Source of the DNA: Bryoerythrophyllum caledonicum
Lineage: Eukaryota > Streptophyta > Bryopsida > Pottiales > Pottiaceae
Length of the DNA stretch: 64,000 nucleotides
Direction: 5' to 3'
Assembly (NCBI GenBank): GCA_963971425.1
Contig: OZ020518.1
Coordinates: 12,716,190-12,780,189 of the forward strand
Of this stretch, positions 1 to 62,629 are shown in pieces (position 1 is the stretch's first letter; each line of letters opens with the position of its first letter). The notes beneath the pieces were generated by a model that was given only the letters and a program-made list of their open reading frames with translations, did no database searches and had not been told where the DNA came from. The translations under genes and the position numbers were made by a program.

Positions 1-135
1 AAACTATCATTGTCCACATCATTGTCCACGTCATTGTCCATGTCAACTGCCACGTTTAATTCCACGTCACACATAAATCCACATCATCATTCACCATAAA
101 TTCCATGTCACACTCAAATCCACGTCAGTAGCCAA
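1..135. repeat. Degenerate short direct repeats (CCACGTCA / ATTGTCCAC type)
   Basis: The first 135 bases repeat variants of TCCACGTCA, TCCATGTCA and ATTGTCCACATC several times. No reading frame is supported. It looks like the edge of a longer low-complexity or transposon-terminal array that continues to the left of the window. Confidence 0.45.
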
Positions 136-540
136 CTCATCAATGTTCGGGGATGATGGACCACATAGGCAGATGGATGAGAAGTCCACGTGGCAAAAAG
201 AATGACTACAGAAATCTATTACTCAAAACTATTACTATGCCCGAACAAAAATTTTCTTAGTCATTCCCTAGTAATACAGGTCATCTATGACTCAACAATG
301 ACTAAAATCGCTAGTCATTGATGCCTCGATTTCCCGTAGTGCTATGAAGGGTCACTTTACATTCCTACCATATAGTTCGTCTAAGTCAAGTTTGAAGTTT
401 ACTTTTGGTGAATGAAAATATTTGTGGTTTAGTTTCTTCCATTGCATCTCAGGTGTAAATTGTCCTTGGACATTAGATTAGATGCATATGTGAAATTGCA
501 TGAGACGTTTTTCATAATAGATTATCGCTTTCATTTGCAG

Positions 541-612
541 GCTGAACTTGGTGAGGTTGGAGAAGGAAGTGGACAGACACACAACGACGAGGAGCTGCAA
601 ACTTCAAACTAG
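541..612 (+). CDS. Possible terminal exon of an unidentified upstream gene
   Basis: A good acceptor (TTTCATTTGCAG) is followed by 24 codons ending in TAG. The translation starts AELGEVGEGSGQ and ends DEELQTSN: hydrophilic, acidic and like the C-terminal tail of a transposon or nuclear protein. The rest of the gene would lie left of the window. It could instead be an untranslated or chance exon. No family is recognised. Confidence 0.25.
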   Translation, partial: AELGEVGEGSGQTHNDEELQTSN

Positions 613-838
613 ACAGGTAAATACCCAAAATAATCTCCACGCTTGTTTCCATTTCAAAAATTTGAATGTTGTGTCCCATGTCTTCTTTTATGTGCAATAT
701 TCATGTTTCATTGTCTAAACCCTAGTCAATAGCAATTAACCCAACACCCAAAACCTACTAACTATTCTCCTAAATCCTGATTCTGTGAGTCGTATTTCTT
801 TAGATTCAGTAAACCTTGTATTTTTGTGTCTTCATTAG

Positions 839-928
839 GTGTGCGCTGCAGTGAATCGTGCCGAAGGAGGGTTCACCGGCGTTGGGTGTGACGTCATTGA
901 GGCCGCTCCGAACCGGCTGGCGCTCCTC
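839..928 (+). other. Possible exon (90 nt, open, GC-rich)
   Basis: A stretch clearly more GC-rich than its surroundings is bounded by CATTAG on the left and CTCCTC|GTGAGT on the right. It is open for 30 codons (VCAAVNRAEGGF..., ending NRLALL). It may be an upstream non-coding or coding exon of the ParB-methyltransferase gene, with the palindrome array as its intron, or a 3' exon of the gene to the left. Transcript data would decide. Confidence 0.25.
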
Positions 929-1017
929 GTGAGTTTTATTTCTACTCTTAAATGAATACTTCTTGTTGTCACAGTACCATATATGGAATCCGCTTGTGGA
1001 ATCAATCATGTGTGAAG

Positions 1018-3995
1018 GTGCCTCGGATCCGAGGCACAAGATTACTCGTCCCTATTTCAAGATCAGATTTTTAGTTTCAATGATACTAACATGCTAGATC
1101 CGAGGGACTGATGGAGAGCACCATTCTGATGTTTTTTCTTTTGGTCAATGTAGATTCACATTTGCGGTATTCTTTAGTGGACTTCATTGTTTTCATTAGT
1201 GGATTCACCATCAATGTTCTCCATTTGATGCTCTTTTGATGTTGGATTCGAGTTGCATGTTTGATGTGCGATGAGGAATCGTACATGCTGAATGCTCACA
1301 AGAGCTGGTTTGAAGTCGTGTCTTCCTCTTTGCAAGCCTGAATCATGTCTTTATTAATATAAATGTGCGATTTTTAGGTTGCATACTAGCATGTTGATTC
1401 GATGCTCACATACATACTGGATGTTTCGTATTGCAGGTTTTTGCTTGTTTCTGCTCGTTGCATGGTTGAATCGTGAATGTATCTTGTTGGACTCTTATCT
1501 TCGTGTCTTTCAAATTTTTTTCTATATTTTGTGGAATGCTTAATATGATGTGTGAATAAGAGTAGATGCCTCGGATCCGAGGTACCCGAGTACTAGTCGC
1601 TTTTGCACCATCAGAAATCTCAATTCAATGCCACTAACTTGCTTCACAACTTCGTACATGTGCGACTTGAGATGATGCTTCTAACATGCTGATTGATATT
1701 TACTTGCTGGCTTTTTGCTCGCTTCTTACTCGATACTTGCTAAAATCATTTTTGTTTGTTCCTGCTCTGTTGTTTAAGTTTAGATACGTATGATTTACCC
1801 TCTGGAATGAAATCAGATTTCGAGAGAGCCGAGGGTCCCTCGGATCCGAGGAATTGATAGAGAGCACCATTCTAATGTTTTTTTTTGGTCGATGTGGATT
1901 CACCTTCGCCGTTTTCTTTTGTGGACTACATGCTATTCACTAATTTAAACTCAATCATGTATTCCTCTGGCGTGTGTATATTCTAAAATGTGTTTACTAG
2001 ATGTCTAAAGGTGCCTCGAATCCAAGGCAGGCGATTGCACGTCCCATTTGCATGATTCGAGTTCTCTGTTTGATGCTCTTTTGATGCTGGATTCTACTTA
2101 CATATTTGATGTGCGATGTGGAATCGTACATGCTGAATGCTCAGAAGTGTTGGTTTGAGGTCGTGTCTTCCTCGTTGCATGCCTGAATCATGTCCTTATT
2201 GAAATAAAGGTGCGAGTCATAGTATTAATGTTATTCATCTGTGACGTGCTAAATGACAATTAACTAGCTGACTCAGAACTAGTCGGTTGTGCTGGATGCT
2301 TTGCTTTGCAGAATTATGCTAGTTTGATGCTTGTTTCATGCTTGAATCAAGTTTGTCTTTGAGGTCATTTGTCTTAGCTTTAAAACTCTATCAATGATTT
2401 GGTGGTTTGTGTGGAATACTGAATGAGATGTCTGAATAAATGAAGGTGCCTCGGATCCAAGGCACGCGATGTAAGCGTCAGTTTTGGAGGTTAAGAAGTT
2501 TAGATACGTATGATGTACCCTCTGGAATGAAATCAGATTTCGAGAGAGCCGAGGGTCCCTCAGATTCGAGGGACTGATGGAGAGCACCATTTTGATGTTT
2601 TTTTTTGGTCGATGTGGATTCACCTTTACCGTTTCCTTTTGTGGACTTCATGCTATTCAATAATTTAAACTCAATCATGTATTCCTCTGGCGTGTGTATG
2701 TTCTAAAATGTGTTTAAAAGATGTTTGTAGGTGCCTCGGATCCGAGGCAGGCAATTGCACATCGCAGTTCCATGATTCGAGTTCTCGGTTTGATGCTCTT
2801 TTGATGCTGGATTCTACTTACATGTTTGATGTGCGATGAGGAATCGTACATGCTGAATGCTCAGAAGAGCTAGTTTGAAGTCGTGTCTTCCTCTTTGCAA
2901 GCTTGAATCATGTTTTTATTGTTATAAATGTGCGATTTAGAGGTTGCTTACTAGCATGTTGATTCGATAATCACATTCGTAATGGATGTTTTGTATTGCA
3001 GGTTTTTGCTTGTTTCTTGTTTTGTGCATGTTTGAATCGTATATGCTTCTTGCTGGACTGTTATCTTAGTGTCTCTCAAAAAAAAATTCCATAGTTCGTG
3101 GAATGCTTGAAGTGATTTGTGAAGGTCTATTGATGCCTCGAATCCGAGGTACCCTAGTACTAGTCGCTTTTGTATAATTAGAAATCTACATTCGGTGCCA
3201 CTAACATGCTTCACAGTTGCTTACATGTGCGACTTGAGATGATGCGTCTTACATGTTGAATGATATTAACTTGATGGTTTGATGCTTCTTACTCGATACT
3301 TGCTTGAATCATATTTGTTTGTTCCTGCTCTGTTGTTTAAGTTTAGATACGTATGATGTACCTTCTAGAATGAAATCAGATTTCGAGAGAGCCGAGGGTC
3401 CCTCGGATCCGAGGAATTGATAGAGAGCACCATTCTAATGTTTTTTTTTTGGTCGATGTGGATTCACCTTCGCCGTTTTCTTTTGTGGACTACATGCTAT
3501 TCACTAATTTAAACTCAATCATGTATTCCTCTGGCGTGTGTATATTCTAAAATGTGTTTACTAGATGTCTAAAGGTGCCTCGAATCCAAGGCAGGCGATT
3601 GCACGTCCCATTTGCATGATTCGAGTTCTCTGTTTGATGCTCTTTTGATGCTAGATTCTACTCACATGTTCGATGTGCGATGAAGAATCGTACATGCTGA
3701 ATGCTCATAAGTGCTGGTTTGAGATCGTGTCTTCCTCGTTGCATGTGAATCATGTTTTTATTGTAATAAATGTGCGATTTAGAGGTTGCTTACTAGCATG
3801 TTGATTCGATAATCACATTTGTACTAGATGTTTTGTATTGCAGGTTTATGCTTGTTTCTTGCTTTGTGCATGGTTGAATCGCATATGCTTCTTGCTGGAC
3901 TGTTATCTTAGTGTCTTTCAATTTATTTTTCCATAGTTCGTGGGATGCTTAAAGTGATATGTGAAGGTCTGTTGATGCCTCAGATCCAAGGTACC
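1018..3995. repeat. Composite tandem repeats punctuated by GATC-centred palindromes
   Basis: About twelve variants of one palindrome recur near 1018, 1098, 1568, 1836, 2008, 2446, 2558, 2730, 3131, 3400, 3572 and 3975. The best copy, at 1018-1037, is a perfect 20-nt palindrome, GTGCCTCGGATCCGAGGCAC. The spacing is regular: about 172 bp (1836-2008, 2558-2730, 3400-3572), about 402 bp (2730-3131, 3572-3975) and about 268 bp (1568-1836, 3131-3400), giving a composite unit of about 841 bp. The intervening sequence is also repeated, for example near 1785-2100, 2503-2830 and 3342-3660. No coding frame is supported. The array ends about 300 bp before the first exon of the gene at 4286. Confidence 0.85.
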
Positions 3996-4285
3996 TGAGT
4001 ACTAGTCGCTTTTGTATAATTAGAAATCTACATTCGGTGCCACTAACATGCTTCACAGTTGCTTACATGTGCGACTTGAGATGATGCGTCTTACATGTTG
4101 AATGATATTAACTTGATGGTTTGATGCTTCTTACTCGATACTTGCTTGAATCATATTTGTTTGTTCCTGCTCTATTGTTTAAGTTTCTTATGCTGGATTC
4201 TAGAATAGCTCTAGTTTCATGCTCATGTATGTAGCTAAAAATTATTTACCATGGATGTGTGTAGATGGCGTAACCGTATGGAGAC

Positions 4286-7200
4286 ATGGTCACGCCAACT
4301 GAGGACTTAGAGAAGCCCAGTAAGGACACGACTTTTGCTTCTGAAGCTTTGGGATCTCCACATGCGGATTCGAGTTTAGTCCTGCAAGTTGTACCGGCGT
4401 TGGGGATTGATCTTGGTTCGGACACAACAGAGCTTTCATTAAGGAAGTCCATTCGTAGGACTTCCTACAATGTGCTGCAGAAGTCTCATTCTCCATCTTT
4501 CGGGGAGTTGCACATCCCACTCTGCCAAATGTTGTCAATGAGTGAGGTGCGTATTCCAGTCAAGCCCGACATTGAGAAGCTGAAGAGCGAATTTGTCAAA
4601 GGCTACCGCCTAGGATCTGTATGTTCCTATGTTGCTTTGAGAAACTTTTCCACGGTAGAACGGGAAGTTCTTCCTGAGGAGCGTGCAGGATGGTCAGACA
4701 TTTGGCGAGCGGAGGACTGGAAGTTCGAAGCTTTGATTGCGAGTAGGCCAGAGTTACAATGCCTTTCTAATCGCTATTTTTTTTGTATGTGATGGCAACC
4801 ACCGCCATCTTGCATGGATGGATGTCATATCCACCATGCATAGAAATAATTCTGCCTTTCATATTCCGGTTCGGGCTGTTTTATTAGAGCCCACATTAGG
4901 GAACCGCCATATATTACTAAACGCCATGATGGACTGGAACAAGTGAGTTTTTTTCTTTATTTCTTTTTAGTTTGGTTTTTTTACATTTGTTTGTATTTCT
5001 TTGGTTATTCTCGCAATTCTTTGAAGTTCATGAACATTGTCACTCGGGCAGAAAGACTCTAACCATGTGACACAGCAACTGTCAGATGATGTGAAGAGAG
5101 TTCAACATTTTGGGTTGTTGGACTTCGATCAGCTCAAGGGTGTAATTAGTGAGGAGGATGACGATGCTAGTGTGGCGGAGTGGGCTAGAAAGGGGACCAA
5201 AAAGTGGTACCATATGACCTTCGATTCATTCTTGAAGTTACTTTATGAGGTACGTTTTGATTAAATTTGGCTCTAATTTTCATACTACATGCTATTATGT
5301 GTGGTCCTGAATACGTGTATGATATGTTATTGTGAGTTTTTTGGCAATTATTCTCATACTCTCTTAAATGATTTCTTCGTGTAGCGGGACCTTATTGCAG
5401 CTCAAGATGATTGTATTCGAACGTACCGTGACACACTTGTGATTGGTGTTGGGGCTCATCGTGTTGGGAGCTTGGCGGGGTTGGTCACTCTATGTTCCGA
5501 AGCGGTACAAAAGAAGAAGACTCAATGTGGCATCTTACTCACGCGACTTCTTGCCATTGCTGATCCTCGTAATGGTGAAGAGTTTTTCAAAGAGGTAATC
5601 GTTTGTGCAATTCATTGTACTAGTTCATTCAACATCATTTAATTATTTTTATAGTATTAATTGACCACTTCTTTGTTGTCCTCTAATTCAAGTTCTACAT
5701 CATTACGATGTTTATCAGAACAAGCGAGAAATCACATCAAAGAAGTTGCAACTGCTTTGCACTTCCAAGGTTTCAGCGAGGTTCAAAGGTAGATGGATGC
5801 GTTGGTGGAATTTGTCAAAAGAAGGCAGGGATGAATACAATTTTCCTAAAGCACCATGTTCGGAGATCAGTCTCAAACCCTGGCTTGACGTGGCTTCATT
5901 TTGGGTAGAGGTAAGTACAATTATCTTAGGGCATTTTATGTATTATTTTTCCATCAATTGTAAGTTATGTTTTGTAATATTTTATTTTTATTGTATAGCT
6001 TGAGGAGGAGGCAGAGAAGTTATTTGTCAAGGTCGTGAAGGAAGACAATATCACCATTAGGATAGAGGGTCTCCCGAACCCCATACTGGATATTGGCTCA
6101 TGGGTTGAGGCCAACTCTCTTATGTTCTAGAAGAAGGCGTTTAAGAACCATTTTAGTGGGCCGAAGCCGTTCGTGAAGTCTGATGAGTTTCTCAAGCAGC
6201 CAGAGACACCTCAAAGTGTCAAGAGAGTGGTGCTCCGATATTTTTGGCGAGATCTCGTTGCCAACGGAGCTTTGCAACCTCGCGAGTTGCCAATCCGGCT
6301 AAGGAAGTGGTGTGATACCACAGCCAACTCTGAGTGCATCTTCATAGAGTCTCAGTTGTGCCGTTTCACTCGGCATCATTTGGCTCAGTGTCCTTGGTAC
6401 TTAGAGCTTTGGCATTCAGCTCCAACTCCAGGTGACGAGGTGGAGCTTTGGGAGTCATGTGATTCCTTGGCAACACATTCTGGAGCGCGTCCAGCTTTGC
6501 AAGCTTCAGCTCTATTCCACATTGAGCCTGAGCTTGAGCTCTCTGAAAAGGCCAAGGATAGGACAAAACTGAAGGCGGCTAGGATTGCAGCCAGAGGAGT
6601 AGAGCGAGAAGCGGCACGTTTAGAGAAGGAGATTGCAAGGAAGGACATGAAAGAGACTTGAGTAAGAAACAAGGAGTTGGCAGCAATGGTGGCGAAGGAG
6701 GGTCTTGAGAAATTGTTGTCTCTTGCGGGTCTTGGATTGTTCTCACAGCCGGCACCCATATTCACAACATTTGGCGCTTCTCCATCCGCCAGCATCCGCC
6801 CATCCGCCAGCAACCGTCCAACAGCCGCCCATCACAGACCATCTATTCTATTCCTGTAGTGGAACAGACAGAGTCCAATGTCGTTGTTGAGGTGTTCAAT
6901 ACCAGCGCCTTGTCTATCTTTACTGAGTACGATTCCAATATAGTTGATGATGATGTTCCTCCAGTTTGGAGGGATATAGCACAGTGGTTGATTGCCCATG
7001 GAGGGTCCAAGATGCGGTACATGAAGGGGAAGCTGACTAAGGATGGTTTGGCGGATATATTTATATTTGACGTTCCGGAGGACTTGCCCATTCCAGGCAT
7101 TCAGGGTGGTACAGTGATTCCACCATGGAACATACTACCTACAGTGCCGACCTCCAAGGGTTGAAAAGAATCATTGTGGATTCTCAGGTGCTTCGAGTTG

Positions 7201-8339
7201 GCAGAGTCGTTTCTTCGTGATGGTGGAGCTATCATCGTATTTTACCGAGATTTCAGGTTCATTTCAAATGAACTGGTTTCCTGGGCTCAGTGGTCGGGAT
7301 TCGAGGAAGAAGCGAAGTGCTTTGCCATCAATGGACTTTTCCTTTTCTCTGATGGTCGCCCCGGTCGCATACATAAGACTTTCATGGTCAAGTGCTTCGT
7401 TCGAACGAGTGATCCTCCAATTCTATTTGTCTTCAATGACAAAGTGGAGCTTTTGGCGGATGAGATTGAGCTTTCTTCCGACGGTCATCTGACCAACTAC
7501 ATCACCTAGGAGTCACTAACGGTGAGGACCTCCACCGGGATGCCATGGCGAGGCGCTAGAGAGAAGTCGCAGAATCTATTGGAGGCTCTTATTGATCTTT
7601 TTACCAAGGAGGATGAGATCATCATGGACCTCACCGCTTCTACTGGTATATTCATTTCATTTTTACATTTGTTTTTTCAATTATCCAACCATGATTCTAA
7701 TCTATTACTCTTTGTATTCCACACTTTTTCTAGGCGCATGAGTTAAGGCTTGCAAAGCCCTCAAGCGTCATATTCTTGCCTTGGAGGCTGACAAGGACTT
7801 GGTAGACGAGGTGCTTCGACCCATGATTCCAAAGACGGTGGAGGTGAATTCTGCGATTATTGAGCCGATGGAGCAGACTTCTCTCAAGCGCCCTTTGGAG
7901 CTTGGTGATGACGAAACAGAGATTAAAACTACGCCTAAGAGAACTTGTAAGTAAGTTTTCTTCATTCCTTTATTGTTTGTTTATCTTGTTCTATCAAGCT
8001 TTTCTCCTAATATCAATCAATTGCAGACGGTTCTCGACGTCGTTGATGGCTTCTCTGTCAACACTTTCCGTTGGAGTGTTGGATTGCTTGGCAGGCAAGG
8101 TTGTCAGTCCAGAACAACCGCATATTTTGCCTGAGAATGTTGAGGCTGCTGCTATTGAATCCGTAGCGCAGCCTTCGCCTCCACGACGTCCACCGACTGC
8201 TCGATCCGGCTCCGGAGCAAAGGTTTTTGTGGATGACGAGGCTGAGGAGGCTAGTACTGATTCTGATAGTGGTTCTGATAGCAGTTTGCCGTTTATCCAT
8301 CAGGGCAGTGACAATGAGTTCACCTGTGATGAGTTGTGA
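4286..8339 (+). pseudogene. Decayed gene: ParB-like (DGNHR) domain fused to a beta-order DNA methyltransferase
   Basis: Seven exons can be traced: 4286-4942, 5027-5249, 5385-5594, 5719-5910, 5999-7645, 7734-7950 and 8027-8339, about 1,150 codons, with phases that match at every junction. Exon 1 carries RIPVKPDIEKLKSEF and then VCDGNHRHLAW, the DGxHR signature of ParB/sulfiredoxin-like folds. Exon 5 has a Lys/Arg/Glu-rich coiled stretch, then VIPPWNIL (a DPPW motif IV with Asp replaced by Ile), FLRDGGAIIVFY, and GAREKSQNLLEAL leading into DLTASTG. Exon 6 continues ACKALKRHILALEAD, the SAM-binding motif I, so the order IV-then-I is that of beta-class N4/N6 methylases. The tail is Ser/Asp-rich and acidic. 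Breaks: a frameshift in a T8 run (4778-4785), in-frame stops at 5031, 6128, 6659, 7162, 7507 and 7739, and a second frameshift between about 6690 and 6860. All stops are TGA or TAG, as C-to-T decay would give. It is a multidomain gene or transposon-borne gene, now broken; no named family is recognised. Confidence 0.75.
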
Positions 8340-10405
8340 TTCCTCTATTTTGTATGCCGTGTTGACATGATATGCGGCTTTGGATTTATGGATATATTTC
8401 ACCCTTGCATGTCTCATATGATTATTTGTTTTATCCACAGAAATGTTTGTACTCTAGTTAGATAATTAAATATCTCTAGAAATATCACGCATGGATGGAT
8501 TTCACTCAATTTATATAATGTGTCATTGAATTTACAAATATACAATTATCACATTATGAATAGTATACACAGTTTCTAAAATTTTTAGGTGGTCCGTCTC
8601 TATCATTCTCTCCATTCACCACCTTAAACCTTCGGACACATATTACCATTAATCTGAACATTCATTGGAATAATAATACTTATTAGACTTAATTTGAATA
8701 GTAATACACATCCAAGAGAATTTATCTACTGCAAATCGCAGAGTCATTCAAGCATAGCTTATCCATGGCTTCAAGATGTTTGCAGTAAGAGAATTTTGAT
8801 AGGATACTAGATGTACTTCATCTCCATATTTTTTGTTTTATTGTCTAATAAAATAAGGGGATTATAGATGTACTTCTCCCACATAATTGTATATGAAATC
8901 ACTATTATTGGAATAGAATTTTGCATTGTAATATATGTTTCATTATCTCTCATCTTTTTACTTTTGGATGTAAAGTTTTCCAAAAAGTCTAAAAATAGTT
9001 CCATGGCTATAGGTGCTTCTATTGAATAAAAGATAAAATAAAGCGATTGCAAGTCTAGAATCTCTCTTATGTTAATGTTTTTATTTTGATTTTTGGAAGC
9101 ACAACCCACCTACACTCACAGCAATAGGTGTTCTTTTTAATTTCACAAAAAAAAAACAATGGTAAAAGTTGTCATGAATTCAGTGCTCGCCGCTCGCTGC
9201 TCACCGCTCACCGCTCACCGCTCACAAGATAGCATTCATGCTTGCCCGACAATGTGATCATAAGAGTGGAAGTGTGTTTTGGATCATTTTTTGCCACAAG
9301 TCTTGCCCAGTGTATTGCTTGTTGTGTTTTTTCTATATCGTGGAGGTGGGCAATACCATTTCCAATCCATTTGTGGTCAAAGTTGTTTCCTAGTGAGCCA
9401 AAGATTTTCTCTTTCAAAGGGTGAAAGGAATTTAGTGAGTTGAGTGGGGGCATGTGACGAGGATGAGAAGTACGAGTGTTGGATGTTGAACGATGAGATT
9501 AGTGAGTCTAGAATAGGCGTGGGTAGTATGTATTGTGCCAGTTTAAGGAGGTCATTTTTTGAGATGCGATATTTATACCTTTGATATAACCATACTATTT
9601 CCGTTTCAAATGGTTGGGTTGTTGGTTCTATGTTTGTGGGAGTTTGTAGTTGTTATGGTGTTGATTCCATAGCCATTAGAGTCTAGTGGCGGGAATGGTG
9701 ATTAGATGTCTCCCATTATCTTTGTATATGTGTGCGTATTCTTCATTCATTTTAATTGTATTGTATGATGTAAGATTGTCTTTTTCGGGGTTGCATTTGG
9801 TTGTGTGTATATTGAGGAGCGGAATGATGATGGGTTGGGTAATGGTTCTTGAGTCACAAGATTGTTCCTTGAGGTGGTGTGCTTGAATGATTTATAAATA
9901 TAATCTATTTTGGGTGTGTTGATAATACTGTGATAATTGTGTGGAGTTATAGGTGGAGGTGTTTTGGTCATGCCATGGAAAGAGGTTCCGTTGAGGTAAT
10001 CATTTGTTGTAGATATTGTTATTGTGCATAGATATTTGGTATCATTCTTTATAATTTTGTTTGAGTCAATATGTTTTCTATGTTCATGGTCAAGAATGAG
10101 GTTTATGGGCTATGTGGATGGGTTTTTAAGGATGCGTGTTGGGTAAAGGATGAACATACATTACCTTCATTTGGTGTTAAAGTTTTCCATCACTAAATTT
10201 CTCAATTTTATACCATTATCATATAAGTGATTTTAGTTCCTTATACACCAATTTTTTAGAGGTACAAGAGAAGTGAAGCATTTTGAATCAAATTAAGGAA
10301 AGAAAAAAGCCTTTCAAAAATGCCAGAAATACATTTTTCTTTTCAAAATATCCCTTTTCATGTAATCTGAAAATCCAAACAATAAAAGTTATTGTTCATG
10401 CTCTT
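8340..10405. other. Intergenic, no supported gene
   Basis: AT-rich sequence. Short ORFs on both strands have no recognisable domain or splice context. A small simple repeat at about 9187-9225 iterates CTCACCG/CTCGCCG. Nothing else could be supported. Confidence 0.5.
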
Positions 10406-16617: not shown

Positions 16618-19600
16618 CTAGCAATCTGGTGCTCGAGACTCTGGTCGGACCAGCTTCTGCAAATCTGGAAAAGAACCCAAGTTTAGCGTACCTAAGCTCT
16701 GACAGTCCTCGAGGTTCAGGCATTTCAAACTGTGCAGGGGTTCTGTGCTCGTCAAGTAGGCCAAGCTTGAGCATCCTGCAAGGTACAACGTCTCCAGATT
16801 CACAAAATTACACAGATCTGGAAGTGCCTCCAACCGCTTGCATCCACGAAGACTGAGCTCCTTGAGAGCAAGCAATGGGACACTATAGCTCAAGCTTGTC
16901 AAGCTCGAGCATTCGTCAAGTTCCACATTCTTCACCTGTGGGAAAGGAGTCAAGTCCAGGGCACCCAAGCTCCCGCAACTCCAAAGCTCCAGGCGTTTCA
17001 AACAGTTTAGAGATTCCTTGCTGGTAAGGCAAGCCAAGCTCGAGCATTTAACAAGTTTCACGTTCTCCACCTGTGGGAAAGGAGTCAAGTCCAGCGCACC
17101 CAAGCTCCCGCAATTCCGGAGCTCCAGGTCTTTCAAACAGTTTAGAGATTCCTTGCTGGTTAGGCAAGCCAAGCTTGAGCATTCGTCAAGTTTCACGTTC
17201 TCCACCTGTGGGAAAGGAGTCAAGTCCAACGCACCCAAGCTCCCGCAACTCCAAAGCTTCAGGCATTTCAAACAGTTTAGAGATTCCTTGCTGGTAAGGC
17301 AAGCCAAACTCGAGCATTCGTCAAGTTTCACGTTCTCCACCTGTGGGAAAGGAGTCAAGTCCAACGCACCCAAGCTCCCGCAATTCCGGAGCTCCAGGTC
17401 TATCAAACAGTTTAGAGATTCCTTGCTGGTAAGGCAAGCCAAGCTCGAGCATTCAACAAGTTTCACGTTCTCCACCTGTGGGTAAGGAGTCAAGTCCAGT
17501 GCACCCAAGCTCCCGCAACTCCAAAGCTTCAGGCGTTTCAAACATTTTAGAGGTTCCTTGCTGGTAAGGCAAGCCAAGCTCGAGCATTCAACAAGTTTCA
17601 CGTTCTCCACCTGTGGGAAAGGAGTCAAGTCCAGCGCACCCAAGCTCCCGCAACTCTGAAGCTCCAGGCGTTTCAAACAGTTTCGAGGTTCCTTGCTGGT
17701 AAGGCAAGTCAAGCTCGAGCATTCAACAAGTTTCACATTCTCCACTTGTGGGAAAGGAGTCAAGTCCAGCGCACCCAAGCTCCCGCAACTCTGAAGCTCC
17801 AGGCGTTTCAAACAGTGTAGAGATTCCTTGCTGGTAAGGCAAGCCAAGCTCGAGCATTCGTCAAGTTCCAGGTTCTCCACCTGAGCGGAAGGAGTCAAGT
17901 CCAAGGCACCCAAGCTCCCGCAACTCCAAAGCTCCAAGCGTTTCAAATAGTTTAGAGATTCCTTGCTCGTAAGGCAAGCCAAGCTCGAGCATTCGTCAAG
18001 TTTCACGTTCTCCACGTGTGGGAAAGGAGTCAAGTCCAACGCACCCAAGCTCCCGCAATTCCGGAGCTCTAGGTCTTTCAAACAGTTTCGAGGTTCCTTG
18101 CTGGTTAGGCAAGCCAAGCTCGAGCATTCAACAAGTTCCACGTTCTCCACCTGTGGGAAAGGAGTCAAGTCCAGGGCACCCAAGCTCCCGCAACTCCAAA
18201 GCTTCAGGCGTTTCAAACAGTTTAGAGGTTCCTTGCTGGTTAGGCAAGCCAAGCTCGAGCATTCATCAAGTTTCACGTTCTCCACCTGTGGGAAAGGAGT
18301 CAAGTCCAGGGCACCCAAGCTCCCGCAACTCCAAAGCTCCAGGCGTTTCAAACAGTTTAGAGGTTCCTTGCTGGTAAGGCAAGCCAAGCTCGAGCATTCA
18401 ACAAGTTTCACATTCTCCACCTGTGGGAAAGGAGTCAAGTCCAACGCACCCAAGCTCCCGCAACTCTGAAGCTCCAGGCGTTTCAAACAGTGTAGAGATC
18501 CCTTGCTGGTAAGGCAAGCCAAGCTCGAGCATTCGTCAAGTTCCAGGTTCTCCACCTGAGCGGAAGGAGTCAAGTCCAGGGCACCCAAGCTCCCGCAACT
18601 CCAAAGCTCCAAGCGTTTCAAATAGTTTAGAGGTTCCTTGCTGGTAAGGCAAGCCAAGCTCGAGCATTCGTCAAGTTTCACATTCTCCACCTGTGGGAAA
18701 GGAGTCAAGTCCAGGGCACCCAAGCTCCCGCAATTCCGGAGCTCCAGGTCTTTCAAACAGTTTAGAGATTCCTTGCTGGTTAGCCAAGCCAAGCTCGAGC
18801 ATTCACCAAATTTCACGTTCTCCACCTGTGGGAAAGGAGTCAAGTCCAGGGCACCCAAGCTCCCGCAACTCCAAAGCTCCAGGCGTTTCAAACAGTTTAG
18901 AGATTCCTTGCTGGTTATGCAAGCCAAGCTCGAGCATTCGTCAAGTTCCAGGTTCTCCACCTGTGGGAAAGGAGTCAAGTCCAACGCACCCAAGCTCCCA
19001 CAACTCCAAAGCTTCAAGCATTTCAAACTCTGCAGGGTTCCCGTGCTGGTCAAGCATGCCAAGCTCGAACATCTTGAAAGATTCAAAGTCTCCAGATTAA
19101 CAAAATTACACAAATCTGGGAGTGCCTCGAGATCACTGCAGTCTGTCAAGTCCAGGGTTTCTAAAGAAAGTAGGTCATCTAAATGGGGGCAGTATCGCAA
19201 GTTCACACACCGCTTCAAAATCAAGCTTCGTAAATTTGCGAGCTTTGAACTTAGACCCGTTATGGTCTCCACTTCCTTGCACCCACCAAAATAGGCCACT
19301 TGCAAAGATGTCAGCTTACTCACATCCGGTAGTCTCTGCCCTTTAGCATCTTGCAACTTCAAAAATTGCAGATTTGTCAGGAACCCGATATCTTCAGTAT
19401 ACACCTCGTCGTCCGGCATGCCGATCCATCCCAAAAATGCAAGCTTTGAGAGCGATCTAAGTCCACACACTTTGAAGGTTTTGCTAATATCTCCCAATTC
19501 CAAGTGTTTGAGATGTCGCAGTTTCCCCAAATCGACCTCCACCAAGTCCATGACCTCCATCCGACCTACCACCTTCAACACTTTCAGATTTGCAAAATGA

Positions 19601-22600
19601 TCAATCTGCAATCCGAGAAACTTCTGCATTCCTGCCTGTGATGTGAAGGACATTCTCTCTAACTTCTCCCAACAATGTCCAGATGGGCTACTTTCTCCAA
19701 GTCCTTTGCATTCCCCATCATCATAAACGCATCTCCGATCTGCAAAATCCTCCTCTTCGATTTCTACAATACAAAACTCTCGCCACAAGTCGTGAATACC
19801 AACGCTTGTAGATCCATCACCCACACTCTCCAACAACGACTTCTTCTTCAAGTATTCCAACTGCACACACCGACACCAATCATATCATACTCCGGAAATT
19901 TACTCAATCAACATCCTAAATAGTACTCAACACTCCTTCATTCTTATTCAAACAAACACATCAATGAAAGCAAATGTCTTCATTCAAATTCTCTACTTTC
20001 ACGAACAAACAAATCATTTGAATTCTAGGCATTCAAGAGCATTTCGAGAAAGAGCAAATCTAAAACTCACTCGTTTCTTGATTGCATCAAGGTTCATTTC
20101 GACATGGATCGTGCCAAGCCACTCAAATAGATTCGGGCCCTCCGCTCTATCGAAAGAATCATACAGCATAGAAGCCTCTCCGTCAAAGGAAACATACCCC
20201 ACGATAGATTTGGGCCTCACAAACAGTGCAACATCCATGAACAACATTTGATCTCCAAGTGACAATGTGTCGTAACTTATCCTCAAAATAGAAAATATTT
20301 GCTTCCTTGCCTCTAAAACCTCATCAGACTTCTCAAGCTTTGACACTTTAGCATCCCATTGTTTCGAATCAAACCCGTGACGACCCATCTCTTCTCTTAA
20401 CACCTTCCCCAACACCTTGAGTGCAAGAGGGTGGTAATGATGATTCATACCTTCACCTCTTCTGAAATAGCAAACCTCCAAACATACATCGATCATTCTA
20501 TCATCCAATTTGATCTCTCTTGCAACAATGGATGTAACACACCTTTTGAATAACTTCCTTGCTTCAAGTCGCTCCAACTCCGGCATTCCTAAACAATCAT
20601 CTTTAGGTATATTTAACGCCTTCAATTCATCTTCCGAACGTGATGTTACCACCACTACACTTCCATCAGCACAAGAATGTATGGCTTCAATATATGTTTC
20701 TGCCTCACTTGATGATTCTTCATCCACATTGTCTATAGCCAAAAATATAGGTTGTTTCACAATACACCTCTTCAGTTGGTCTCGGCACTACAAGTTTAAC
20801 AAAGCATCATAAGTTGATGAACCATTACATCTTGAATACATCTAATCATGAAAATCACACAACTCAGAAATAATAATCTATAAATATTAGTTGTTCATTA
20901 TGATTAAATAGCATCAACATCTCAAGAATGCATGTTGTCATGCCATACTCATTGTCATACCTTATCTATGTCCATCTTGTCCAGTAGGTCGTGCGTTGTA
21001 TTTGTGAGAGTCTTCAACAGTTTTTGAAATAACTCCAACTTGCTTTTACTTTTCAACTCAATGTGGCATACTTTACCGCGAAATTCCTTGTAGAATTTGT
21101 TGAGAAGGACCTTGCACATGGTTGTTTTGCCAATACCACCAACTCCATACAAACCCACAACCCGAACTCCAACCCTTGCAACTGTAGAATTTGATGCAAC
21201 CCTATCCAATATAATCTTCAAAACAACATACATAAACAATAATTTGTCATTTACAAACCTAACATTTGTTCGATATCCAATGTGCCAAGAAGTCAACATT
21301 ATAGGAAGATACAATAAGCATCATTCACCAACTCCTTGATGACAATTCATAAAGCTTGCTTCAATGATTATGTCATCCTCTATATTATTGAAGTTTGTAG
21401 GCATTCATACCTTGCACAACCGGTCCTTTCCTTCAACATCCGAATCATCTGGTCGTGATTCCGGAAGTACTAAATTACAAACTGCTTCAACGACTTCACA
21501 TCGCAGTTGCACTTCTTCCCTGGGATTCCTCAAAACAAGACCTGTTGTTGAACCAAAAATCTTCAAAGCTTTCACCCACTTATCAATGTTGATTGATAAG
21601 TCTCTTTTTGCCCACTCTTCCCATCTTCTTTTCCACCGTCTTTGAGTCTCTTCGGCACGACACTTCTCACGTGAGATGTTATAGAATATAGGCACAATAT
21701 CCATGCCAGACTTCAACTCCTCTGATACTCTCACCATTTCCACAAGCTCCAACATTGGCCATTTTGAATGTGTGAAAAATTTCTTGGATAAAACCACCAC
21801 TCCAACCTCACATTGTTGAATAGCAGAGAACAAGAGGTTTGGAAACTTTTTACCAACAGGTAAACTATCCCGACGTTTATCGAAGAAGGGATATCTATCT
21901 GTACGCTCCAAATCGATACACAACTGCTCCACAAAGCTCTTTTGGAACCCGCTGTGACTGAGAAATATTTTGTGCTTTGGCTGCAGATAGCCCCTACAAA
22001 CATGTATGAAAAAGCTTTAGCACTTCGCACTTCCATTTCACATCCATATCCATATTTTCACAAGCACAAGAACAGATTGATGTAGAAAGAAACCACACTT
22101 TGAATACCAAGGAATGCTCAAGCATCATTCGTCACAGCAACTATTTGACAAATTATACCACAAACCTGATTCTTGCATTGCCATCCTCCACACCTCTTTC
22201 ATGCTGCAACCGAGGATCAACACTAGCTGTACCACATTCCTCAGGCACGTCATCCTCAAATTCCATGTCAACTCCACCTCCGGCTCCAATTGCTTCTGCA
22301 TCTTCGTCACCATTTGTTGAGGTGATAGCAAGATCAAGCTTACGCTTCTTGCTACTAGCTTGAATCAAAGACTCTTCTTGTTGGCTGGGTACATTCGACG
22401 GACCAGCAAGCTGTTCTCTAGCTGGAACTACTACCTTCTCATGCCAACTTCTATGGCATCCACAACCTGCACAGAATCTGGAATTGAGATCACGTGGACA
22501 AAACTCCTGACAACCATCTTCATATGAGGATCCCTCGTCATCGTCACGTTTCTTCAAACACCTGCCGGGTCCTACATTCAGATGTCGAGGTTCATGGAAG

Positions 22601-32160: not shown

Positions 32161-33412
32161 GCACATAGACAGACGCACTTGCATTCAACTCACTTGCTGC
32201 AGCATCGCGGAGCGCGCATCATCTCTTCCGCGCCGTTCGAGATCAGGAGCAAACCGCCTTTGCGTTCGTATCTTCACTTCAAGGTCAGGGAATTACATGC
32301 TCTCTCTTGCGCGCTTTCTGATGATGTCTACATGCTTCTTTTCCACTGTTTAGATCAGGTGGTAAGTATTTGCTTCTTCATTCCCGGAGAATGTTTTGCA
32401 AGATCTTTCTCTATGCTTGTCTACTCTCGAATTCAGTGACATATTTCGTTGCCGTCATTCTGTAGCTATTTCGTCTTCTGCTTTCATGAAAGGCTGAGAG
32501 AGATCTCTTGGAGTTTTTGTCTTTTTGTGAAGCGTGCATAATCTTCGTTGAATGGAGAGGTCTGCATTATTTTCATGGATGTGATCTTCAGGTAGTTCTA
32601 CTTGATCTTGCTTCGTCGGAAGTTCTTGAAATATTTCTGTGCAGTCAGATTTCATTCCGTGACTGTCGAGTCGAGAGGTTTGGCGAGTCCTCCTGATCTT
32701 GGAAGGTGTGGAGAGTGAAGTCTGAGGTTCTTGTGTTTTTCCTGTACTTATTCTTTGTAAGTTGGCCTTGAATATCATGCGAATGCTCTTGCAAGTCTCT
32801 GCTCGTGTCCTGTACAAGAGAAGTAACCTTAGAGATACTTCGTTTAAGTTGTGTCTTAAGAATTGCCGTCAAAGTTCACTTGACGTAGTCTCCTTTTGCA
32901 TGCGACTGTATGTAACTTGCTTCTTGCCTTGCGGCTGGAAGGCATTTGCTCAATTCCGGTACAGACAGTTTCAGCCGCATCCTGCTTCTTGATTAGGCTG
33001 AACATGACTCAGATCAACTTTCTACTCCTATCTTAATTGATCGTGAATTTCAACTGTACATGTATGTAGATGATCCGTGCTGAAGGGCCAAACGTTGAAC
33101 CGCACAGCCGCCAACGCACCGTGGTGGTGACGGCTGACGACCACCAGATTAGAGGGCCGTCAATGGCTTCTCTGCCGAGCACTCATGAGATTGGCGACCT
33201 CCATGATCGCGTCGGACATCTCGGAAGATTCCTCCGACTTGCGTTCGCTTTGATTTTACTTGCGTTTGCGATTCTCGATTTGAACTACCTCCGCGTACAG
33301 GATCTCAAGAATGCGTGGAACGAAGCCGCTGCGAAGTCCGAAGGGGGAGCCATGAGCGGAGTGCCGGCACGAAAATACAATGCTGCTCATGCACCCGTCA
33401 TGTCCCATCCTG
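31925..33412 (+). repeat. Source copy of an inverted segmental duplication (5' part of FAS1 gene)
   Basis: This stretch (upstream sequence, 5' leader, leader intron and the first ~115 codons) reappears inverted at 55347-56790. Matching landmarks include the leader (GCCGTTCGAGATCAGGAGCA versus its relative near 56470), the intron acceptor directly before ATG, and the codons for GGAMSGVPA. Confidence 0.8.
32362..33069 (+). other. Intron in the 5' leader of the FAS1 gene
   Basis: A donor GTAAGT at 32362 and an acceptor TATGTAG at 33063-33069 flank about 700 bases, and the ATG follows the acceptor at once. The same arrangement is preserved in the inverted copy, with the acceptor and ATG intact near 55686. 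No coding sequence in front of the donor was established, so it is called a leader intron. Confidence 0.55.
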
Positions 33413-34005
33413 TTCAGAATCAGCTGCACAGCAACGTTGTGCAGGCGTTACGATCGGGACAGTACAAGGCATTCGCGTCAATGCTGGACAACGTGACTGA
33501 GTCTGTAGTCCGCCAAGGGGTCACAATCTTCGCTCCCAGTGATGAAGCTCTTTCCGACTTCCTAATGAAGAACACAGCGAGCGAAGTGGAGCCGGAGGAC
33601 TTGGTCAGATTCCACATCGTATCCGGCATCATGCCCTACTCGAACCTTCTTCGTTTGAAAGTGGGAAGCAGACTAACGACAGATGTGTCAAACGTGACGA
33701 TCCTGGTAACCAACGTGACCGCAGGTTCCTACCAGGTGGATGATGCAGTGATTGTCGAACCTGACCTGTACACGGCTGCCACCATCGCTGTCCATGGCAT
33801 CAATGGCGTGTTCAACACCACGAAGATCGTTGGGTGGTGGATGATTCCGTTTTTGAGCGGAGGGACTCCCGAAGTCGGCCTAGCACCCGGACCTCAAAGC
33901 CCTGCGTGCAAGACTACCAATATCGCGGTGAAGGGTATTCCCGTATTTCAATTTCTCGTGTCTTCCGCTGTCCTATTTCTGATATACCATACTGCCGACG
34001 TCTGA
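33070..34005 (+). CDS. Fasciclin-like (FAS1 domain) protein with N-terminal membrane segment
   Basis: 311 aa, single coding exon. Residues 54-70 (RLAFALILLAFAILDL) form a signal-anchor or transmembrane segment after a hydrophilic N terminus. The FAS1 domain spans about 120-250, with the H1 motif TIFAPSDEA (152-160), FHIVSG (181-186) and the H2-like AVHGINGVFN (240-249). Asn-Xaa-Thr glycosylation sites are at 141, 208, 215 and 249. A Pro/Gly linker leads to a second hydrophobic segment at about 288-306. There is no long Ala/Pro/Ser arabinogalactan region, so it resembles the single-FAS1 membrane-anchored FLA subgroup more than classical GPI-FLAs. FAS1 proteins act in cell adhesion and wall organisation. 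The start is the ATG next to the leader-intron acceptor. Confidence 0.82.
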   Translation: MIRAEGPNVEPHSRQRTVVVTADDHQIRGPSMASLPSTHEIGDLHDRVGHLGRFLRLAFALILLAFAILDLNYLRVQDLKNAWNEAAAKSEGGAMSGVPARKYNAAHAPVMSHPVQNQLHSNVVQALRSGQYKAFASMLDNVTESVVRQGVTIFAPSDEALSDFLMKNTASEVEPEDLVRFHIVSGIMPYSNLLRLKVGSRLTTDVSNVTILVTNVTAGSYQVDDAVIVEPDLYTAATIAVHGINGVFNTTKIVGWWMIPFLSGGTPEVGLAPGPQSPACKTTNIAVKGIPVFQFLVSSAVLFLIYHTADV

Positions 34006-35072: not shown

Positions 35073-37437
35073 TTAAGTCGAGAGTGTGGTTGGCGTCTCC
35101 GTCATACGAGTGTTGTAGGATGGGCAGGTAGCGCACTTCTGTCCAGCAACATGATATTGCACTTCACTTGTAGATCCACAGTCGTTACATAATATCCATA
35201 CCTGTATCATCGAAAAAAAAAGGTCAGAATCTGCAGTAATTATAATAATAATAAAAACAACCAGCTAAACTAACAGATTGTGAGCAAAGTCCGACTTACC
35301 ATTCTGTTCTGATTTTCAGGCATCTGAGTCGCGGCAATCTCTTCATCAATCTCCTTCCAAACGCTGGACATGTCGCACACAGACTTGTTGCAGAGTGGGC
35401 AGTTGTATCTGCAAGACGCAAATATATCTTTCATCAGAAACATGATCGACCTGTGAGTGCCCAATCTAAAAATCTCCAGATAGAAACTTCTTATGCATAT
35501 CCAATCTATTCCATGTTTCAAGGCATACTTTCTTGTAAGTCTCCATTCGAGGAGATGATTCTCAGCTATGTCATGAGAAGAGCAAACTGGCTGTTGCGTC
35601 CACTTACTGGAAATGTTTGTGCATGTCTTGAAGGCATTCCAGATGCAAAGTGTGGCCGCACGCCAAGACACGGATTTCCTTGAGCGAGTCGAACAAATAC
35701 TGCAAAATGTGGGACAATTTCAGGGTCAGAAATCATCATCCACAGGGAGTACCAAAGAAAAAAAAGTTGGAAGGCAAGGATAATTTACCTCCATGCAAAC
35801 TGGGCAGTCTTGGTGCATGGACTTCTCCACGCAAATGTGGCTCTCGCGCAGCTTCGTGGAGTAGCAGCACCCGCACCGGTCGCAGTGGAAGAAATTCTCG
35901 CGGCCTCCGGTCCGACAAATGCCGCACTTGTCGCAGTGGTACTGCTGCTTGGAGGTGTCGTCATCGAAGAACTTGCAGACGTCGCAGAAGAACTCGCCCA
36001 TGCACACCCCGCAGTTCTCGCACACCTGCTGGACGCGCTGCTCATGCTCGCACAGTGAGCAGATCACGCTCTCCACCTGGTGCCGGTCGATCTCGTGCCG
36101 CTTCTTGTCGTCCTTCTCGTTGACATCCTGAGGAAAACAGAAGTTGAAATCAGTTCTAAAAGCTCTACATTTTCTGCAGTCGGCTCAAAGAGGGAAAAGG
36201 CGGCTGAGATCATCATGGTACAACATCACCTATCCTTCTTCATTGAGCTAAGAGAACACCAAGAGGGGTAATCCAGAGGGGTGGGTGACTCGTTACCTTG
36301 GCGTCGTTATGGCAGTGGCGGCAGTCGAAGACCTCGTTGCAGCAGGGCGCGCGGATCTTGCAGCGCCGTCTGTAGTGCGCGCATCCGTGCCGGTTTGCGC
36401 CGATGGACCACTTCCACGCCTGCACGAGATCCTCCGTGAGGTGGTCGTCGTCGTCCTCCACGTCGGAGTCAAGGCAACTAGTGTGCCCCTGAAAGTGAGA
36501 GATCAACAAACCAGATCATCAGCACAGAGCCAAGAAAACAATCGCATGGCGGTCAAGTAAAAGGGGCAGATAAAAAGGTCCAGAGACAGACACAAATGTG
36601 GAGGAAAAACAGCCACGAATCGCCCCCACTGTTTCCAGACGCGGCACTGGTGCTCTCCTGTCACAATGTGTTCTGAGGTGTGAGCACAGAAAACAAAGTG
36701 ACAGGAAAACAACAGGAGCACACAAAAGACGCATCCGGAATCGAATGTGAACAATCGATTGCACTCTCAACCAACAACAAGGAAACAGAAGGAGTCTCAA
36801 ACGCAACGCCCACACAACCAAAAGCGATCCACTCAATGAATGGAGGCCCATCTACCCACTGCCCAGGTACCAAATCAAGGCCCACGGATTCGGCACCAAA
36901 TTCGCCTATCAAACTCTCCGCACTCACCAAAACAGAGCACTCCACGACAGAAAAGGTGGTGGGGGTACCAGCGCTGCTCTCCAGCCACAATGTGCTCTAA
37001 TGTGTGGGCACAAAAAACGAAGTCACAGGGAAGAAGAAAAAAAAAGAGCACACACACTGCCTCGAAATGAAAACAGGAAACACGAGGAGTCCCGAATCGG
37101 AAGAAGACACAACATCGACTCAGAAGACCTCGCATGAAACAACAAAAGCGACCCGCTCCGGAATGCAAACACGAAGTCCACGGAGTGCAATCTACACCAA
37201 AATTCGTCGCATTCATCCGCCCAATCGCACTCTCAGAAGCCGAAATCAACAACAACGCCCTCGCAACCAGAAGCAAATCGCAGCCGAGCTCCACCAACTC
37301 ACCGTGACGACGTGGTGGTGCGCATGCGCGGCGACATTGTTGTAGGCGTAGCGGAACGGGTCCCCTGCGCGCCCCCCGCCGCCGCCCATGAGCGGCGAGA
37401 GGAGCAGCGAGTCCATGGACGCCACCACCACGGCCAT
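35073..37437 (-). CDS. CHY zinc finger and RING finger E3 ubiquitin ligase (MIEL1/RZPF34/PIRH2 type)
   Basis: Six exons: 37437-37303, 36488-36297, 36127-35789, 35699-35608, 35408-35300 and 35201-35073, all GT-AG, 996 nt, 331 aa. Residues 1-45 are variable and Gly-rich. The CHY finger starts with [23 protein letters not shown] (residues about 79-101, shown in part as HYRRRC and CCNEVFDC) and runs into the CTCHY region ([42 protein letters not shown]). The RING-H2 is CPVCMEYLFDS...[11 protein letters not shown]...NCPLC (about 217-259), and a zinc ribbon with CNDCG and CATC closes the protein. All zinc ligands expected are present. Plant members ubiquitinate MYB factors and modulate ABA and defence responses; human PIRH2 targets p53. 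The start could also be the Met at 37416 or 37464. Confidence 0.93.
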
Positions 37438-54869: not shown

Positions 54870-55347
54870 TTATGTAATGTTGGAACATGGGGTGATTGCT
54901 TGTACATTATCATTAATGTGACCTAATAATGTTTTATGACTATGAAGATCATTCCACCAAACATGGCTTTTGATGAATTCAAATATCCATTCTGCACCAT
55001 TGAAAAATGGGCTACATGATGGCAAAGAGATGTAGATGTGTCCAACATCTTCAAAAGCCTGTTGTATTTCATGAGATTTATGAAATGGGACATTATCCAT
55101 AAGGATGAACCTTTGTCTATTGAGGCTAGAAATAATCTTGGTTTCAATAAATTTTAAGGTCTTGTTTGTATTGTAGGCACCACGTGTGACATTGTGTGCA
55201 ATGCCTCTTTCATGAGCAATGACAATCACCAAATACAAACTACAAACCCTTTGAGTTGAATGAATTTGTTGGCATCTTTATCTTTGATGAGCCTTTCCAA
55301 AACGTGTCTGATGTAAATTAAAAGCAACTCCATCTATGTATACTTGA
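54870..55347 (-). pseudogene. Remnant of a Tc1/mariner (DDE_3) transposase
   Basis: The minus strand shows the three catalytic neighbourhoods in order: YIDGVAFNLHQTRFGKAH (first Asp), then after an in-frame stop FILMDNVPFHKS (second Asp, DN..FH) and LPSCSPFFNGAEWIFEFIKS (SP..N..E, third acidic residue). The open part is 54870-55238. The N-terminal HTH region is absent: at 55347 the sequence switches abruptly to the FAS1 gene copy. A broken, truncated transposase. Confidence 0.8.
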
Positions 55348-61797: not shown

Positions 61798-62211
61798 TCA
61801 GGCGCCTTTGGCGAAGGCTTTGGCGGGGAAGTTTTTGCCGATGCCGGCGAAGCTCTTGAAGAAGATTTTGTCGGGGTCTTGGGCGTCCATGGCGATGTCG
61901 ACGATGGAGACCCAGAAGAGCTCCTTGGCCTTGACGCCCGTGAGCTTGCGCAGGCGGCCCTTCTCGAGGAACGCCGTGATCTTGTCGCCGTAGCTCACCT
62001 GTTTTTGGATTTGCTGGAAGTGGTGCACCGTGGGCTTCTTCTGCTGCACCCACACGAACCCCGTGGCGCGGTTGTACCCCACCTCCACCACGTCCTGCAT
62101 CGGCAGCAGCCCGTCCGGCAGCCCGTACTCCACCAGCAGCGCCGCCGCGCGCTCCAGCGACTCCGCGCCCTTGAGCACCGTCTCCACCTCCTCCTCCTTC
62201 ACCATCGCCAT
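61798..62211 (-). CDS. DUF538 family protein
   Basis: 137 aa from the Met at 62211 (MAMVKEEE; the second Met at 62205 is equally possible). Single exon. Family hallmarks are the N-terminal helix region ending in EYGLPDGLLPMQDV, then GFVWVQQKK, VSYGDKITAFLEKGRLRKLTG, KAKELFWVSI and DKIFFKSFAGIGKNFP. There is no signal peptide, as in the shorter cytosolic plant DUF538 members. The molecular role is unsettled; members have been linked to stress responses and to a fold like lipid-binding BPI proteins. The gene is far more GC-rich than its flanks. In-frame sequence continues upstream to 62526 but lacks family similarity there. Confidence 0.88.
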   Translation of the reverse strand: MAMVKEEEVETVLKGAESLERAAALLVEYGLPDGLLPMQDVVEVGYNRATGFVWVQQKKPTVHHFQQIQKQVSYGDKITAFLEKGRLRKLTGVKAKELFWVSIVDIAMDAQDPDKIFFKSFAGIGKNFPAKAFAKGA

Positions 62212-62629
62212 CCTCCCCCAACAAAATTCGCCGAATTCCGAGCACACCCACCAAATTCCTCGCACAACCAGCAGATCGGGGGCGCAATCCACAACACCCA
62301 CCGCCCGGAATTTCGAGAAGATGTGCAGATGTGCAGAGAGTTGAGCTTTTGCGGGGCTTGTATAGCGAGCCTGGCCTTCACGAGGCGGCCAACTGTAGGG
62401 GCAGGTTGCCAACCTGCCAGGCTTCATAAGAGTGAGTGGGTGGTAGGCGGCGATACGATCGAGGCTTTGGCCGTGTGCGTATTCATACGGCAGCTCGATT
62501 GGACATACGGCCGTCGAAGTATCCATACGGGGGCCGGTTGGGGTATAGCCGTGGGAGTACTGTATTCATTTTTTTTTATAAAAATTAATTTAATTTTTTT
62601 AATTTTAATTTTTTTTGTTTTGCACCAAT
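62212..62629. promoter_or_regulatory. 5' flank of the DUF538 gene
   Basis: Presumed leader and promoter by position. No core element was placed with confidence. A T-rich tract begins at about 62566. Confidence 0.35.

Follow-up and report, generated by a model that had tools for sequence, protein, structure and literature searches.

A decayed methylase-like gene in Bryoerythrophyllum caledonicum is accessory cargo of a high-copy DNA transposon with a palindrome array

A decayed seven-exon gene in the moss Bryoerythrophyllum caledonicum, located at 4286..8339 of a 64,000-nucleotide stretch of contig OZ020518.1 (positions 12,716,190 to 12,780,189; hereafter the window), raises the question of what kind of genetic unit would join a DGNHR-bearing N-terminal domain to a beta-order methylase-like domain in a plant. 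The original prediction had described it as a plant gene combining a ParB-like half with a DNA methyltransferase half. Analysis of the window's own genome (437 Mb) revealed that it is a dead copy of the accessory gene of a large plant DNA transposon that was active recently and is present in many copies, and not part of a host gene family, a context which the prediction had overlooked. With part of exon 5 as query the search returned 1335 candidates, and two exon 1 queries returned 1842 and 1831, these being first-look counts and not confirmed copy numbers. All 150 candidates scored in each search were significant, those for exon 5 including groups of near-identical open copies, and the exon 1 copies on contigs C6, C7 and C14 matched the query at 100% with equal score. 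Many of the scored copies were in open frames and many others contained stops. Contigs C5 and C13 lacked any match among those listed (three protein searches with 150 each, and the PF10551 search), while other contigs up to C15 have some.

Comparison of the 20-40 kb around the C6 and C7 copies showed that the two are 99.7% identical, that this identity stops abruptly at both ends and that the flanks are unrelated. Intact elements measure 13-14 kb, end in terminal inverted repeats of about 43 bp (91% identity, C6 and C7 copies) and are bordered by 10-bp target site duplications in all three intact copies read at both ends (CCCGAGTTAT, GTGAAAATAG and GTAACAAAAC), the last of which stands on either side of the third intact copy (contig C3, 14.3 kb), a member of a different lineage. 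A host gene family was rejected because the copies belong to a single element, delimited by inverted ends and 10-bp duplications. Target site duplications of 8-11 bp are a trait of Mutator-like elements (MULEs), which the 10 bp observed here fits. From the left, the element comprises an inverted end, a minus-strand transposase gene, a tandem array spanning a few kb, the plus-strand accessory gene and the second inverted end. The transposase consists of two long open frames. Reading by eye suggested a stretch resembling a zinc finger, a candidate acidic catalytic core and a CTCPDF...CKH pattern (CxC...CxH), without Pfam match, that may be a SWIM finger. It lies head to head with the accessory gene in all four lineages examined (A, B, 603 and 243), where its identity is 75-94%. 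Alignment of the window and the upstream loci L033 and L034 to the intact copies identified 1..9240 (+) as the right-hand part of one such transposon copy, about 18.9 kb in total, which runs leftward past the window to about G000:C6:12706547. Its right terminal inverted repeat occupies 9184..9240 (-), with CGCTCACC repeats followed by CAAGATAGCATTCATG, while the left end lies about 9.6 kb beyond the window in degraded form, and this copy shows no detectable target duplication.

A second feature that had gone unnoticed adjoins the gene, namely a degenerate direct-repeat array at 1016..4250 (repeat families D1-D14) between the accessory gene and the transposase, which is located beyond the left edge of the window; relatives carry arrays at the same location. 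The array contains five exact copies of the palindrome CCTCGGATCCGAGG (1021..1034, 1569..1582, 1838..1851, 2734..2747 and 3401..3414) and six near copies with 1-2 mismatches (starting at 2014, 2449, 2558, 3136, 3578 and 3978), and the same palindrome recurs about once per repeat unit in arrays with units of 139, 221, 244 and 275 bp. The ten-base perfect palindrome core, TCGGATCCGA, occurs without mismatch 4-10 times in every one of the 11 arrays compared, of which lineage A contributed two, lineage B six (that of the window among them) and lineages 567, 603 and 243 one apiece; the expectation was 0.004 or fewer. Three of these lineages were fetched after the palindrome had been predicted, and the core was present in all of them, as ACCCTCGGATCCGAGGGT (5 times) in lineage 567, CACCTTCGGATCCGAAGGTG (8 times) in lineage 603 and GGCTTTCGGATCCGAAAGCC (4 times) in lineage 243. 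Unit flanks at least 5 bases away from the core are 20-42% identical between lineages, except for 603 against 243 at 52%, and 28-60% identical within lineage B. The two bases adjoining the core are complementary across it in 11/11 consensuses, although from lineage to lineage C is replaced by T and, correspondingly, G by A.

Genome-wide, the three 14-bp versions of the palindrome were counted 1068, 256 and 476 times, and reversed-pattern controls 0 times each. When the first 50 listed sites per version were compared with the exons among the matches listed, 16 of the 20 arrays with at least three sites lay within 12 kb of an exon, with a chance expectation of about 1% each, and one further array of the 20 was accounted for by the second exon 1 search. 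Clusters with one or two sites were matched to a listed exon in only 3 of 22 cases, which would be expected if the exon listing is incomplete and old copies decay. In lineage 243 (L039, G000:C6:27574000-27577200; palindromes at 501, 1028, 1548 and 2069) the palindrome is the centre of a far longer inverted repeat, with arms of roughly 50-60 bases as judged by eye from the consensus, for which cruciform formation is conceivable.

That the decayed gene was once a real spliced gene, as had been proposed, proved correct. The model is not a product of chance, because positions 4367-8462 align at 85.5% DNA identity to an intact relative, and the damage amounts to five in-frame stops (6128, 6659, 7162, 7507 and 7739) and two frameshifts (about 4780 and 6820-6855). 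All exons are on the plus strand. Exon 1 (4286..4942) encodes the N-terminal domain with DGNHRH, a GxxRxxA motif, and carries the frameshift near 4780; exons 2 (5052..5249), 3 (5385..5594) and 4 (5719..5911) have approximate boundaries and fall within the DNA alignment to the intact relative; exon 5 (5999..7646) encodes a linker and the first part of the methylase-like domain (DVPE, the IIVFY strand and DLTASTG), interrupted by four stops and one frameshift; exon 6 (7734..7953, boundaries approximate) supplies the remainder of the S-adenosylmethionine (SAM)-binding half (KACKALKRHILALE) and a basic KRPLE...KRTCK tail, with one stop; and exon 7 (8028..8339, boundary approximate), also covered by that alignment, encodes an acidic C-terminal tail. 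In open relatives exon 1 extends as far as NK, exon 5 stops at DLTASTG, and exon 6 runs from GASI to about KRTCK. The peptides quoted in the original prediction were all recovered within 4286-8339: VCDGNHRHLAW is readable in exon 1, downstream of the frameshift in an 8-T run near 4776-4784, while PPW, GGAIIVFY, GAREKSQNLLEAL and DLTASTG are found in exon 5 and ACKALKRHILALEAD in exon 6. Its claim of consistent intron phases over seven exons held only in part: introns 2-6 have GT/AG edges, but for intron 1 the window copy offers no in-frame join.

As to what the gene encoded, the methylase half of the proposed identity was borne out. In an alignment of six accessory protein sequences from five lineages, the methylase-like domain showed 78% mean column identity, and PF01555 matched all six members at expectation values (E) up to 10, the best at E 4.4e-7 and 30.5 bits, above the cutoff of 26.7, with the window copy itself just under that cutoff (E 8.8e-6, 26.3 bits). 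The phage family phrog_3008 (PHROG 3008) likewise matched all six at E up to 1 (best 8.1e-8), and DpnA was matched by profile at 2.5e-4. Alignment by hhalign to four phage enzymes gave E 2.8e-6 with a probability of 88% and was collinear, with the motif IV region before motif I; a second phage set, 18 representatives of 117 phage open reading frames related to two ParB-methylase-type proteins, gave E 0.0012 and a probability of only 20% with the register unchanged. A single-sequence fold prediction for the methylase exon of the window was unusable, with a mean confidence score (pLDDT) of 35. Homology of the C-terminal domain to beta-class N6/N4 methylases is thus well supported by these sequence comparisons.

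Whether the domain would still methylate DNA is a separate matter. Beta-class methylases are expected to carry a motif IV of the form [DNS]PP[YFW] and a glycine-rich motif I with a GSG turn. In the accessory proteins the motif IV position reads DVPE in 6/6 sequences, with both hhalign alignments placing DPPY there, and the motif I position reads DLTASTG in 6/6, in place of the GSG turn. PPW is not motif IV; DVPE starts 17 residues before it. Ordinary methylase catalysis by the accessory protein appears doubtful because of these two replacements. An accessory protein that is an active DNA methylase, of the N6-adenine or N4-cytosine kind, and places a bacterial-type epigenetic mark on the GGATCC-centred palindromes would agree with the beta-order homology, with the strong purifying selection on the domain described below and with the occurrence of ParB-N6_N4 methylase fusions in phages, as reported in the part of a ParB-fold survey considered here (PMC12704722) and as seen in one tested phage protein with both Pfam domains; yet in 6/6 motif IV lacks the second proline of DPPY as well as its aromatic residue, and DLTASTG stands where the GSG turn should be, and we consider this explanation unlikely.

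The ratio of nonsynonymous to synonymous substitution rates (dN/dS) in exon 5, the methylase exon, was 0.08-0.27 in 20 of 21 pairs with finite dS, compared with 0.06-0.37 in 17 of 21 finite pairs for exon 6 and 0.06-0.11 in 8 of 21 for exon 1, where the remaining pairs were dS-saturated; the pairs share branches and are hence not independent. For the transposase dN/dS was obtained from one pair, with three further copies left out. Purifying selection was shown for the transposase and the accessory gene alike. These results bear on the idea that the gene is a host gene or fragment captured by chance in the manner of Pack-MULEs and functionless for the element. Mutator-like elements tend to pick up host gene fragments, according to the consulted part of a 2019 survey (PMC6446971), and the window copy is dead, but the gene is open and under purifying selection across lineages and is paired with the transposase in 4/4 lineages examined, which leaves chance capture very improbable. 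Between one A copy and one B copy, dS was 0.2-0.29 in the transposase and 1.8-2.5 in the accessory gene, a contrast in this one pair that is best explained if element lineages have exchanged their accessory halves.

In contrast to the methylase half, the ParB half of the proposed identity could not be established. The P-motif GxxRxxA is a hallmark of ParB, and GNHRHxA, which fits it, is invariant in all six exon 1 sequences. Pfam, PHROGs, NCBIfam, PDB sequences and hhalign, applied with and without an insertion of roughly 50 residues, all failed to return ParB. Matching phrog_1033 was limited to 1/6 members at E 0.5. With hhalign, full exon 1 scored 17.0 against phage ParB domains with the motif out of register, and the trimmed domain scored 12.0-12.7, compared with a median of 11.6 and a maximum of 17.9 for 100 column shuffles. 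Matches to PDB sequences, among them 4hhu OR280, eL24 and Crl, appear to be chance hits. Based on the motif and the phage fusions, a ParB identity of the N-terminal domain is plausible; the arginine of the P-motif is named in the consulted part of the ParB-fold survey (PMC12704722).

What, then, would the element gain from this gene? Perfect palindromes that are kept in the shared promoter while their surroundings turn over indicate a dimeric DNA-binding protein, and the accessory protein is a natural candidate for their reader because it is element-specific, has a basic tail, and unites a motif and a domain that in phages also share one chain. We propose, at roughly even confidence, that the accessory protein binds the core palindromes as a dimer and controls the element's promoters, most likely countering silencing in the manner of VANC. 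The Mutator-like element carries two head-to-head genes, for the transposase and for an accessory protein that is probably nuclear; its basic tail may, as judged by eye, be a nuclear signal. With its DGNHR N-terminal and beta-methylase-like C-terminal domains, this protein would bind TCGGATCCGA palindromes as a dimer, and the domain of SAM-binding type, probably non-catalytic, would then control the element's own promoters, most likely counteracting silencing as VANC does for VANDAL elements.

Several results weigh against this proposal or its parts. On the side of the element, no PF10551 match was obtained in the scanned transposases, none of the 150 listed genome matches to PF10551 lies inside the elements read, and no Mutator model reached threshold with the transposase (PF00872 gave E 0.33), so that the term Mutator-like rests on the ends, the duplication length and the architecture. 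On the side of the protein, a single open copy scanned with its intron gives only 15.6 bits for the methylase, and the PF02195 ParB profile found nothing in the genome, while controls rang in 11/14, and nothing in the six members. Lineages A and B, finally, share a palindrome version and have 94% identical transposases, whereas the identity of their accessory proteins is no more than about 62-65%, a pattern that recognition by the transposase would fit at least as well. The palindrome reader could therefore be the transposase or a host factor, which is a serious rival. In such a scenario the palindromes would be read by the transposase or a host transcription factor, with an unrelated role of the accessory protein, for example in modifying transposition intermediates; the palindrome version tracks transposase similarity in A and B, and the array sits in the shared promoter region. 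Against this scenario, the array lies between the genes and not near the ends, where transposases usually bind, and lineages 603 and 243 have other palindrome versions, yet their transposases are still 75-86% identical to that of A. We regard this scenario as a real possibility, somewhat short of even.

A further reading, more elaborate and in our judgement rather improbable, would have the element adopt a bacterial mobile-element module, in which a ParB-type nucleoside triphosphate-dependent clamp on parS-like arrays coats the shared promoter, a methylase-derived SAM sensor or enzyme allows the element to keep or write its own chromatin state, and the array and gene would be swapped between lineages as a cassette.

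Beyond the transposon copy, the window contains a TIR-type immune receptor gene at 16618-22016 (-), whose 1088-residue open frame includes a very long series of near-identical leucine-rich repeats (LRRs) (Pfam TIR at E 2.5e-13, plus several LRR models), and a remnant of a DDE_3 superfamily transposase at 54870-55277 (-) (E 1.9e-12). Ordinary plant genes are present as well, for a fasciclin protein at 33070-34005 (+) (4.5e-11), for pieces of a CHY zinc finger and a zinc ribbon at 35270-36184 (-), both under cutoff, and, at 61801-62565 (-), for a protein of the DUF538 family typical of plants (1.1e-29). The receptor, the fasciclin protein and the DUF538 protein are what gives the window its plant character.

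Searches for the origin of the accessory gene gave little. Alignment scans of viral contigs with both domains and of genome contigs with exon 1 yielded no confirmed relative, and tblastn on phages returned weak methylase matches for the methylase part (best listed E 0.02) and none for exon 1. In the literature, covered by titles and abstract openings outside subscription papers and Repbase, no such element was described; the words methyltransferase, ParB, bryophyte and Physcomitrella are absent from the 2019 Mutator survey (PMC6446971), as are plant, moss and transposon from the main text, as far as consulted, of the ParB-fold survey (PMC12704722).

Among known systems, phage and prophage ParB-N6_N4 methylase fusions, such as those reported in the 2025 ParB-fold survey (PMC12704722, part of the text), share with the accessory protein the presence, on a single polypeptide, of an N-terminal GxxRxxA and, behind it, a methylase domain of beta order. 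Two phage proteins were tested as such fusions, one of which showed both Pfam domains and the other the methylase only. Unlike the accessory protein, the phage proteins collected retain both a DPPY-type motif and an F.GSG turn (the set having been selected for both), and no profile match links the ParB halves. The plant gene, moreover, is interrupted by introns, encodes a long linker and has about 50 additional residues ahead of the motif. A bacterial-type N4-cytosine methylase is also reportedly present in bdelloid rotifers, where its N4-methylcytosine is said to act as an epigenetic mark in rotifer DNA; both cases concern bacterial-type methylases in eukaryotes, the plant protein differing in its degenerate motifs and its location on a transposon.

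To our knowledge, few eukaryotic transposon-encoded regulators have known DNA targets, and the comparable cases met in this analysis are VANC and the fungal TET/JBP genes. The latter, dioxygenases on fungal DNA transposons, resemble our case as accessory genes of DNA-modification type in a eukaryote and, in the portion of the source considered (PMC12730594), are proposed to aid in escaping silencing; they differ in enzyme, host and transposon superfamilies, our protein being methylase-like. VANC, the closest working model, binds motifs that have accumulated through tandem repeats in noncoding parts of its Arabidopsis VANDAL element, the VANC21 motif being YAGTATTAY, as described in the sections consulted (PMC5735166), and the two systems share a transposon with an accessory protein and a short noncoding tandem-repeat motif that varies by subfamily. 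YAGTATTAY is not palindromic, however, and those sections make no mention of a methylase-like domain. The family described here, which seems to bring along its own DNA-recognition and regulation system, adds an example of a methylase domain of bacterial type recruited into the equipment of a transposon. It offers a defined perfect palindrome, hundreds of natural sites, versions of the site that differ among several lineages and open copies with near-identical twins, material with which binding and anti-silencing become directly testable.

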